Below are positions 5,129 to 26,860 of a stretch of 64,000 bases of DNA, in pieces. Position numbers and translations under genes: made by a program. Numbering within the stretch: the first letter of the stretch is position 1; every line of letters starts with the position of its first letter. The stretch is taken from contig NZ_JACTVA010000009.1 of assembly GCF_014490485.1 (NCBI RefSeq), positions 62,001 through 126,000 of the forward strand, given 5' to 3'. The stretch comes from Teichococcus aerophilus. Its GTDB lineage: Bacteria; Pseudomonadota; Alphaproteobacteria; Acetobacterales; Acetobacteraceae. Below the pieces are notes generated by a model. It had not been told where the DNA came from. It did not search any database and worked only from the letters and a program-made list of their open reading frames with translations.

Positions 5129-6013
5129 ATGACCGAAGAAGCACGCAGCCAGATGGAACTTCTTGCCGTGGCGCTGCCGTTCCTGAAGCGATACGACGAC
5201 CAGATCATCGTCGTGAAGTATGGCGGCCACGCCATGGGCGAGGAGGAAGCCGCCAACCGCTTCGGCCGCGACATCGCGTTGCTGGAGCAGGTGGGCGTGA
5301 ACCCCGTCGTGGTCCATGGCGGCGGTCCGCAGATCAACGCCATGCTGAAGCGGCTGAACGTCCAGTCGCAGTTCGTCAACGGCCTGCGCGTGACGGACGC
5401 CAATGTGGTGGACGTGGTGGAGATGGTGCTCTCCGGCACCGTTAATAAGCAGGTGGCCGATTGCATCACCCGCGCCGGCGCGCTCGCCGTGGGTATCTCC
5501 GGCAAGGATGGCGGGCTGATCCGCGCCCGGAAGCTGGAGCGCACCTACCGCGACCCCGAGAGCAACATCGAGAAGGTGCTGGACCTCGGCTTCGTGGGTG
5601 AGCCGGACCGCGTGGACCCGCATGTGCTGGAACTGCTGATCGGCGCCGACATCGTGCCGGTGGTGGCACCGGTGGGCGTGGGCGCCGATGGCCAGACCTA
5701 CAACATCAATGCGGATACGGCGGCGGGTGCCATCGCCGGTGCCCTGAACGCGTCCCGCCTGCTGATGCTGACGGATGTGCCTGGCGTGCTGGACGCCGAC
5801 AAGAAGCTGATCCCGGAGATGACGGTAGCCCAGGCCCGCGCCGGCATCGCCGCCGGCTGGATCTCGGGCGGCATGATCCCGAAGATCGAGACCTGCATCT
5901 ACGCGATCGAGCAGGGGGTGAAGGGCGCCGTCATCGTCGATGGCCGCGTGCCGCATGCCGTGCTGATCGAGCTGTTCACCGATGGCGGCGCGGGCACGCT
6001 GATCAGGCCTTGA
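5129..6013 (+). CDS. argB: Acetylglutamate kinase
   Basis: ArgB phosphorylates N-acetylglutamate, the second step of arginine synthesis in the cytoplasm. The 294-residue protein carries the nucleotide-binding glycine-rich motif [10 protein letters not shown] (about residue 28), the substrate loop [13 protein letters not shown], and the C-terminal nucleotide-binding segment [15 protein letters not shown]. It keeps an N-terminal helix of about 25 residues before the core. In this family such a helix is associated with hexameric, arginine-inhibited enzymes, so feedback control is a reasonable inference. ArgB commonly follows engB in alphaproteobacteria; here a minus-strand gene pair separates them. 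The start is supported by a strong ribosome site and a promoter-like sequence. Confidence 0.97.
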
Positions 6014-6016
6014 TAT

Positions 6017-6336
6017 TGCCCTCAGGCGCCGGGCGCCGCCTCCGGCGGCTTGGCTGCGCCGCATAAGCGGCGGGCCGCGTTCGCGGCCTCAGCACGGCGG
6101 GGGCCGTGCTGCGGGTTCGGTGGTGCCTTCAGGCGCCGGGCGCCGCCTCGGGCGGCTTGGCTGCGCCGCATAAGCGGCGGGCCGCGTTCGCGGCCTCAGC
6201 ACGGCGAGGGCCGTGCTGCGGGTTCGGTGGTGCCCTCAGGCGCCGGGCGCCGCCTCCGGCGGCTTGGCTGCGCCGCATAGGCGGCGGGCCGCGTTGGCGG
6301 CCTCAGTACGGTAGGGCCGTGCTGTAGTAGTCGTGG
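6017..6336. repeat. Three tandem 107 bp repeats, each with four hairpins
   Basis: Three head-to-tail copies begin at 6017, 6124 and 6231. Copies 1 and 2 differ at three positions; copy 3 decays after about 90 bases. Each unit holds four palindromes in series, given for copy 1: GCCGCC/GGCGGC (6035-6049), GCCGC/GCGGC (6058-6071), GGCCGC/GCGGCC (6073-6088) and AGCACGGC/GCCGTGCT (6091-6110). Most differences between copies fall in loops. In copy 3 the last stem has two C-to-T changes that leave G-U pairs in RNA and a loop one base shorter. The period is not a multiple of three, so each copy is read in another frame and the repeat is not coding. It fills the 429-base gap between argB and dapD. Confidence 0.9.
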
Positions 6337-6367
6337 CACTCCGGCTGGGGCGGCTTCCCCGCCGTTG

Positions 6368-6396
6368 TTGACAGCGGCCCGGCCCCACCCGATACC
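6368..6396 (+). promoter_or_regulatory. Candidate promoter of dapD
   Basis: A consensus TTGACA is followed by 17 bases and GATACC, directly after the hairpin repeat and about 47 bases before the chosen dapD start. The -35 is perfect and the -10 moderate. Confidence 0.55.
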
Positions 6397-6442
6397 GGCG
6401 CGACCCTTTTTTACCGCTACGCGCCGATCGGGAATGACCTGC

Positions 6443-7279
6443 ATGGACCTCGCCAGCCTTTCCTCCACCATCGAGGGCCTGTGGGCCCGCCGCGCCGAGA
6501 TCTCGCCCGCCACCCAGGGCGCGGAGCGTGAGGCGATCGAGGCGGCGTTGGAGCTGCTGGACTCCGGCAAGGCCCGCGTGGCGGAGCCGGATGGGCAGGG
6601 CGGCTGGAAGGTCAACCAGTGGCTGAAGCAGGCCGTGCTGCTCTCCTTCCGCCTGGAAGACAGCGCGCCGATGGATGTCGGCCTCGGCGCCTATGACAAG
6701 GTGCCGCTGAAGTTCAAGGACTGGGGCGAGAACCGCTTCCGTGAGGCCGGCTTCCGCGCCGTGCCGGGCGCCGTCGTCCGCCGCTCCGCCTTCATCGGCA
6801 AGGGCGTCGTGCTGATGCCCTCCTTCGTCAATCTCGGCGCCTATGTCGATGAGAACACGATGGTGGATACCTGGGCCACGATCGGTTCCTGCGCCCAGAT
6901 CGGCAAGAATTGCCACATCTCCGGCGGCGCCGGCATCGGCGGCGTGTTGGAGCCGCTGCAAGCCAACCCGGTCGTCATCGGCGATAATTGCTTCGTCGGC
7001 GCCCGCTCCGAAGTGGCGGAAGGCGTGATCGTGGGTGAGGGCAGCGTCCTCTCCATGGGCGTGTTCCTCGGCGCTTCCACCAAGATCATCGACCGCGCGA
7101 CGGGCGAAGTGTTCATCGGCAAGGTGCCGCCCTATTCCGTGGTGGTGCCGGGCAGCCTGCCGGGCAAGCCGTTGCCGGACGGCACGCCGGGCCCCAGCCT
7201 GTACTGCGCCGTCATCGTCAAGCGCGTGGACGCGCAGACCCGCAGCAAGACCAGCATCAACGAGCTGCTGCGGGACTGA
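6443..7279 (+). CDS. dapD: 2,3,4,5-tetrahydropyridine-2,6-dicarboxylate N-succinyltransferase
   Basis: DapD transfers succinyl from succinyl-CoA to tetrahydrodipicolinate in the succinylase branch of lysine and meso-diaminopimelate synthesis. The chosen start gives 278 residues, near the family norm. An N-terminal helical domain contains [18 protein letters not shown]. It is followed by the left-handed parallel beta helix built of hexapeptide repeats ([32 protein letters not shown]) and a C-terminal cap with [16 protein letters not shown]. The start is preceded by GGGA at nine bases; an ATG three codons earlier would also be possible. dapE follows after eight bases, forming a lysine/peptidoglycan precursor unit. 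Confidence 0.97.
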
Positions 7280-25344: not shown

Positions 25345-26792
25345 GCTACACGCTGGAAGGTGCCACCGGCACTTGGGAAGTCGTCATCGGGCTGGAAGTG
25401 CACGCCCAGGTGACGTCGAACGCCAAGTTGTTCAGCGGGGCGGCGACCGAGTTCGGCGCCGAGCCGAACAGCCAGGTCAGCTTCGTCGATGCCGGCTTTC
25501 CTGGCATGCTGCCTGTCATCAATGGCGAGTGCGTGGCGCAGGCCGTGCGCACGGGGCTGGGGCTGAACGCGCAGATCAATCTGTGGTCGCGCTTCGACCG
25601 CAAGAACTACTTCTACGCCGACCTGCCACAAGGCTACCAGATCAGCCAGTTCGAGTTCCCTATTATCGGGACTGGCGAGATCGAGATTCAGCTGGCCGAC
25701 GGTAGCGTCAAGAATATCGGCATCACGCGCCTGCACCTGGAACAGGATGCCGGCAAGTCGCTGCACGACCAGCATCCGACCAAGAGCTACATCGACCTGA
25801 ACCGGTCCGGCGTGGCGCTGATGGAGATCGTCTCCGAGCCCGACCTGCGTTCGCCGGAGGAAGCCGGCGCGTATCTGACGAAGCTGCGGCAGATCCTGCG
25901 CTACCTTGGCACCTGCGATGGCAACATGGAGCAGGGCTCGCTGCGCGCGGACGTGAACGTCTCGGTCCGCAAGGCGGGCGAGGGGTTCCGCACGCGGTGC
26001 GAGGTGAAGAACGTCAATTCCATCCGCTTCGTCATGCAGGCGGTGGAAGCCGAGGCGCGCCGGCAGATCGAGGTCTGGGAAGCCGGCGAGGAAGTCGTGC
26101 AGGAAACCCGCCTGTTCGACACGTCGCGCGGCGTCACCCGCTCCATGCGCTCGAAGGAAGATGCGCATGACTACCGCTACTTCCCCGACCCGGACCTGCC
26201 GCCGCTGGTGCTGGATGCCGCCTGGGTGGAGCAGCTGAAGGCCGGCCTGCCGGAGCTGCCGGACGCCCGCCGCGCCCGCTATGTCGGCGATTACGGGCTG
26301 ACGCCCTATGACGCGCATGTGCTGACGCTGGAGAAGGAGACCGCCGCCTTTTACGAGAGCGTGGCCGAGGGGCGTGACCCGAAGATGGCGGCCAACTGGC
26401 TGACCGGCGATTTCTTCGCCGGACTCAACCGGACCGGCCACAGCATCGGCGATTCGCCCGTCAGCGCCGCGCATCTTGGCGAGCTGCTGGACCTGATCAA
26501 GGACAACACCCTTTCCGGCAAGCTGGCGAAGGAGGTGCTGGAGGCGATGTTCGAGACCGGCAAGGCGCCGTCCGTGCTGGTCGAGGAGCGTGGCCTGAAG
26601 CAGGTGACAGATACCGGCGCGATCGAGGCGATCATCGACGAGGTGATGGCCAAGAACGCGGACAAGGTGGCTGAGTACCGCAGCGGCAAGGACAAGCTGT
26701 TCGGCTTCTTTGTCGGCCAGACGATGAAGGCGATGCAGGGCAAGGGTAACCCCACCCTGGTGAACGACCTGCTGAAGCAGAAGCTGGCCTGA
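25341..26792 (+). CDS. gatB: Asp-tRNA(Asn)/Glu-tRNA(Gln) amidotransferase subunit B
   Basis: GatB binds the misacylated tRNA, activates it with ATP and channels ammonia from GatA. The 483-residue protein opens with the signature [20 protein letters not shown] and shows [50 protein letters not shown], and a C-terminal YqeY-like tail domain with [18 protein letters not shown]. The last 22 bases of the gene are the first part of a 30 bp sequence repeated three times, so the end of the gene has been duplicated downstream of itself. Translation stops in the first copy. Confidence 0.97.
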
Positions 26793-26860
26793 GGCCAGGG
26801 GCTGAAGCAGAAGCTGGCCTGAGGCCAGGGGCTGAAGCAGAAGCTGGCCTGAGGCCAGAG
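26771..26860 (+). repeat. Three tandem 30 bp repeats spanning the gatB stop codon
   Basis: Units start at 26771, 26801 and 26831. The first two are identical and the third differs only in its last two bases. Each contains the end of the gatB reading frame (Leu-Lys-Gln-Lys-Leu-Ala-stop) and a hairpin, CTGGCC-TGA-GGCCAG, with the stop codon in the loop. All copies are in frame, so a readthrough would meet a stop in each. Confidence 0.95.

Follow-up and report, generated by a model that had tools for sequence, protein, structure and literature searches.

The RIME of Rhizobium, which Osteras is said to have described in 1995, are reportedly mosaic, palindromic and intergenic, some 100 bp long, and belong to alphaproteobacteria. 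The element described in this article shares with them an intergenic position, a palindromic build and alphaproteobacterial hosts. GTAG- and CGTC-tagged REPs and BIMEs are portrayed as short, high-copy intergenic palindromes that lie mostly 3' of genes, singly or clustered, and are unevenly distributed among species; the tagged REPs are single palindromes of 20-40 bp carrying GTAG or CGTC, and the GTAG type is linked to RAYT transposases (PMC3733652). Multi-palindrome repeats designated Br-REP1 and Br-REP2 are reported from the 3' UTRs of Bradyrhizobium, Rhodopseudomonas and their relatives, Br-REP1 comprising three adjacent palindromes between convergent genes (PMC5082802).

The present element lies between argB and dapD of Teichococcus aerophilus. 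Like the GTAG/CGTC REPs and BIMEs (PMC3733652), it is high-copy, intergenic, mostly downstream of genes, single or clustered and unevenly spread among species. In relatives its palindromic copies are numerous, lie between genes and seldom separate divergent ones, whereas its own genome has one array only. Unlike a GTAG REP (20-40 bp), it is about 95 nt long with four ordered hairpins and the motifs CCTCA and CTTGGCT, has no terminal GTAG in the tables of its flanks, and is not linked to RAYT (Y1) transposases. With Br-REP1 and Br-REP2 it has in common alphaproteobacterial hosts, multiple palindromes and a location at gene 3' ends, but the consensus sequences printed in PMC5082802 contain neither CCTCARRCGCCGG nor CTTGGCT. 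No description of a matching element was found in the literature searched; the element is real and widespread, and apparently undescribed.

Within the window, the whole stretch of 64,000 nucleotides that was analysed, the array is the strongest tandem repeat by a large margin (Tandem Repeats Finder: 95% matches, score 560). The features of the locus, with model matches referring to the covariance model introduced below, are:

5129 to 6013, + strand: argB, acetylglutamate kinase (TIGR00761, above cut-off)
6017 to 6324, + strand: tandem array, 107-bp unit, 2.9 copies (Tandem Repeats Finder)
6020 to 6116, + strand: element copy 1 (model match, 89.5 bits)
6127 to 6223, + strand: element copy 2 (model match, 90.7 bits)
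6234 to 6329, + strand: element copy 3 (model match, 95.0 bits)
6368 to 6396, + strand: TTGACA-N17-GATACC before dapD, its putative promoter
6443 to 7279, + strand: dapD, tetrahydrodipicolinate N-succinyltransferase (TIGR00965, above cut-off)

Copy 1 is in turn composed of:

6020 to 6032, + strand: conserved leader CCTCAGGCGCCGG (alignment), whose GCC can form pairs with GGC inside the CTTGGCT linker
6035 to 6049, + strand: hairpin 1, arms 6035-6040 and 6044-6049, loop TCC
6050 to 6055, + strand: conserved linker TTGGCT (alignment)
6057 to 6072, + strand: hairpin 2, arms 6057-6062 and 6067-6072
6073 to 6088, + strand: hairpin 3, arms 6073-6078 and 6083-6088
6090 to 6111, + strand: hairpin 4, arms 6090-6098 and 6103-6111

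A sequence-only reading of this DNA had described three 107-bp copies with four hairpins each, which both Tandem Repeats Finder and the model matches confirm; it had run the array on to 6336, too far by the model match, in which copy 3 ends at about 6329. Its argument that the period excludes a peptide also stands: a peptide-coding repeat is ruled out, since a period of 107 cannot be divided by 3 and the open reading frames across the array are mechanical. Copy 1 begins 6 nt after the argB stop codon. As that reading had stated, copies 1 and 2 differ at three bases, two of them in loops; the third falls in the leader and none among the 60 stem positions. Comparison of the copies likewise bears out two C-to-T stem changes in hairpin 4 of copy 3, both leaving G-U pairs, alongside seven unpaired changes relative to copy 1. 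Single units fold only moderately better than shuffles (as RNA, z of -1.2 to -2.2 on the + strand and -2.0 to -3.4 on the - strand; as DNA, z of -2.5 to -3.5 on either strand), and for this reason the array taken alone is weak evidence of structure; it is the relatives that make the evidence strong. The motif TTGACA-N17-GATACC precedes dapD in 14 of 17 genus orthologues, the printed stretches of the other three ending before it, and was not reported by a consensus scan. Because this putative dapD promoter lies beyond the array, the three copies are probably part of the 3' region of argB and not of the control of dapD.

Relatives were searched by BLAST and with a covariance model (R1) built from 25 genus copies aligned by MAFFT without structure (alignment A1). 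In the 5.66-Mb draft genome of the strain itself, BLAST of the unit and the covariance model found only the three array copies, 150 of 20,889 candidates having been scored in the latter search, so that weak copies may be missed. No degenerate extra copies emerged there from a core pattern (32 matches versus 14 for a reversed control), and among the core-pattern matches listed, the full leader-stem-linker was recognized by eye only in the array. BLAST of 17 genus genomes gave matches in eight. R1 matches were found in at least 7 of 17 genomes of the genus, at least 51 of 299 of the family (at least 18 of 102 genera), at least 21 of 385 of the class (at least 18 of 277 genera) and at least 8 of 398 of the phylum, all eight being Alphaproteobacteria; these counts include the strain's own genome and are lower bounds, with 10 to 13 candidates scored per genome in the large scans. 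Thirteen family genomes each have at least 13 matches, and one relative (G243), scored deeper, has at least 95 copies. The suggestion of a REP-like dispersed element is therefore supported in relatives in the genus, family and class, but not in the strain's own genome, with its one array.

Carriers identified directly include Falsiroseomonas bella and an Elioraea metagenome-assembled genome with two copies just 3' of its own argB; further carriers are Siccirubricoccus sp. G192, Roseicella frigidaeris, Pseudoroseomonas deserti, P. rhizosphaerae and Roseomonas sp. 18066. At the argB-dapD site itself, the element is present in 2 of 17 genus members, the strain and G010, and the site is empty in the other 15. 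Tandem arrays occur at several sites. Three genus members, G005, G015 and G010, carry 2, 5 and 1 copies, respectively, in one shared neighbourhood that by eye is the rho 3' end (L117, L118, L126). Among viral-collection contigs, the 48-kb IMGVR_UViG_2708742415_000004 (L316, L360, L361) has approximately 20 copies, many in direct 108-nt tandem, and L328, L333 and L378 often present the elements as close inverted pairs, BIME-like and about 120 nt apart, which differ from the direct tandems of the window's genus. One genus copy had no match in a plasmid collection, and Rfam at gathering score returned only tRNA and tmRNA matches for the window and 12 loci, none at the element.

The placement of the element is REP-like, near gene 3' ends and rare between divergent genes. 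Of 187 matches, 24 had an unknown neighbour or lay inside a called open reading frame; the remaining 163, with neighbours called by our own codon-position G+C finder, comprise 72 between convergent genes, 86 between co-directional genes (50 sense and 36 antisense to both) and 5 between divergent genes, compared with 15 of 59 element-free spacers of the same loci that are divergent. With genes called in the same way, the distance from an upstream stop codon to the element is most often 7 nt; the flank on the 5' side of the element is rich in T from -10 to -6 and ends in GC. Strong folding of the 40 nt 5' of the element was seen in 86 of 186 cases, where shuffles would give 53, and 38 of the 186 have a T-rich stretch as well; on this basis some copies may lie downstream of a terminator.

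Across the class, four hairpins in fixed order are accompanied by conserved leader, linker and loop sequences. The order is CCTCARRCGCCGG, hairpin 1, CTTGGCT, hairpins 2 and 3 directly adjoining each other, the bases TC, hairpin 4 and GCAGGT; the loop of hairpin 1 is (A)TCC in genus copies, and the conserved unpaired parts are CCTCA, GCCGG/CTTGGCT and the loops TCC and ATTC. By eye, a further hairpin stands directly 5' of CCTCA in some copies (L149, L153, L154, L157, L166, L181, L187), possibly as a fifth module.

That structure is kept, as the sequence-only reading had supposed in proposing selection on it, shows in the stems, whose covariation lies far above shuffled and slid controls. In the structure-blind alignment A1, 91.5% of stem cells pair versus 76.2% when shuffled, two-sided changes number 91 versus 31, and the covariation score is 0.373 versus 0.124, a score reached by none of 500 shuffles; RNAalifold recovered hairpins 2 to 4 from it unaided. 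In A2, with 94 distinct matches, the corresponding values are 97.6% versus 74.8%, 552 versus 189, and 0.492 versus 0.116, and the signal is lost when partners are slid by 1 to 3 columns. A2, A3 and A5 were fitted to the covariance model and their pair counts thus lean towards it, whereas those of A1 (MAFFT only) do not; the copies within alignments are not independent. At eight orthologous sites in sister genomes, with one pairing per site and the argB site among them, differing positions amount to 34 of 479 in stems versus 74 of 284 unpaired, so that, on the comparison of stem-breaking with loop changes to which the earlier reading had pointed, stems are the slower. The stem differences include nine compensated double changes, three single changes via G-U and another nine single ones by which a pair is broken or mended; the G010 copy at the argB site differs from the strain's own by compensated changes in hairpins 1, 3 and 4. 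In G243, 56 of 77 copies have all 20 counted pairs Watson-Crick at a median nearest-neighbour identity of 0.87, which rules out young copies as the sole cause of perfect stems; that genome has three main stem types each for hairpins 2 and 3 and 36 for hairpin 4.

The element offers hundreds of natural replicates across many alphaproteobacterial families for asking whether paired stem changes in bacterial repeats stem from a function of the RNA, from folding of the DNA or from mutation by template switching, and counts of G-U versus A-C and of transversions provide a simple test. If the RNA fold of one strand were kept, C-to-T changes (leaving G-U) should outlast G-to-A changes (leaving A-C), and the observations are otherwise. 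In hairpins 2 to 4, leaving out the last pair of hairpin 4, 3613 of 3688 cells are Watson-Crick, with A-T pairs frequent (138 cells), and G-U accounts for 23 versus 37 for A-C; hairpin 1, parsed without the model and leaving out 24 unparsable regions, gives 5 and 12 of 623. The excess of G-U over A-C expected of a one-strand structured RNA was therefore not found in these stems. The balance is similar in copies antisense to both neighbours (3 versus 5) and in sense-only copies (6 versus 8). The two G-U pairs of copy 3 are not typical of the family; the earlier claim that pairing persists in RNA of the array's own strand is not supported, and one-strand RNA is probably not the form under selection. 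Double transversions occupy 471 cells versus 68 for double transitions, and make up six of the nine compensated changes at orthologous sites. Since double transversions cannot pass through G-U, and G-U is no commoner than A-C, pairing at the DNA level is favoured: the stem changes fit Watson-Crick pairing kept in DNA better than RNA alone. The route could be selection on folded single-stranded or cruciform DNA, rewriting of one arm by template switching, or exchange of whole hairpins between copies.

These counts weigh on the proposal that the element is a functional RNA of 3' UTRs, whose four hairpins would stabilize the upstream mRNA or lead to its processing, either by stopping 3'-5' exonucleases or by binding an RNA chaperone. 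Many copies do lie close behind a stop codon, the unpaired CCTCA, CTTGGCT and loops are conserved in a manner as compatible with an RNA-binding partner as with a DNA-level reader, the element is retained with slow stems at orthologous sites, and stabilization of mRNA by REPs in E. coli is reported (PMC5082802). However, G-U is not preferred even in the sense-only copies, while the tRNAs of the same loci have 30 G-U in 386 pairs (only the G-U share being comparable, as the program hides A-C mismatches), and 36 of the 163 placed copies are antisense to both neighbours; we consider this explanation somewhat unlikely. For the array itself, a role as 3'-end protector of argB mRNA is possible, at a site that is empty in most of the genus.

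Pairing could instead be kept by mutation without selection, with template switching between arms repairing or rewriting the stems of a passive repeat. The creation and maintenance of perfect stems by this route has been proposed (PMC8794818), and both the dominance of double transversions and the scarcity of single-step mismatches (74 of 3688 cells) are in keeping with it. It does not account for the class-wide conservation of leader, linker and loops, for the one order in which the four hairpins stand or for the placement bias, and is judged improbable. Still less probable is a transcription terminator acting in both directions where genes are convergent or in tandem: the 72 convergent placements would suit it, and two-way action would also demand strict Watson-Crick stems, yet hairpin 4 has no T-run after it, the stretch rich in T instead preceding the element, a terminator scan of 5950-6480 found none, and sense-only copies have the same balance of G-U and A-C.

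The explanation we favour, and hold to be about evenly poised between right and wrong, is that of a palindromic alphaproteobacterial DNA element, REP-like and non-coding, with four hairpins that act in DNA, which spread to gene 3' ends and was tandemly amplified here. The hairpins would matter as a folded single strand or cruciform, the folded DNA being selected or corrected by template switching; an enzyme reading the conserved unpaired parts may have mobilized copies, which would spread to gene 3' ends and persist there. One copy would have settled behind argB and before the dapD promoter, either before the strain and G010 diverged or separately in each, and then been amplified to three in the strain's own genome, presumably by slippage or unequal recombination. 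A more specific version resembles in its logic the attC sites of integrons, in which stem sequence is free and the fold and unpaired bases are read in single-stranded DNA. By such logic, an ancient alphaproteobacterial element with a four-hairpin single-stranded fold would be the substrate of a non-Y1 enzyme, its stems drifting in pairs and its unpaired bases fixed; this is rather unlikely, and the comparison concerns the manner of working only.

A mobile repeat would be consistent with copy numbers that vary between sister species, with the empty sites and with the arrays in tandem. Y1_Tnp (PF01797) was found in 3 of 51 element-bearing family genomes versus 32 of 248 without the element (the element and Y1_Tnp scans being taken, on agreement of their handles, as covering the same 299 genomes), in 3 of 20 class positives, and not in the strain's own genome. 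On this lack of co-occurrence in family and class a RAYT-driven REP is rejected; no mobilizing enzyme was found in a search confined to Y1 transposases, which are not enriched in element genomes. At argB-dapD, no target-site duplication was resolved in the spacers, which are too diverged for the insertion boundaries to be defined. The G243 copies are mostly old, one younger group standing at 0.93-0.96 nearest-neighbour identity, and hence do not demonstrate active transposition. Persistence at orthologous sites could mean a host function.

Some regularities were noted in how matches abut genes. The stop codon of an antisense neighbour lies exactly 21 nt from the element 3' end in L152, L179, L186, L188, L190, L191, L253, L254, L269, L280, L286 and L291, and exactly 1 nt from it in eleven other matches, nearby distances being few; no shared sequence or cause was found in these matches. 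Where an antisense gene starts 5-10 nt upstream (e.g., L152, L186, L191), the reversed CCTCA presents TGAGG at Shine-Dalgarno spacing from the start codon, and such copies may supply ribosome binding sites. Elsewhere in the window, Tandem Repeats Finder detected a perfect 30-bp tandem repeat of 2.9 copies at 26771-26858, with a short palindrome inside.
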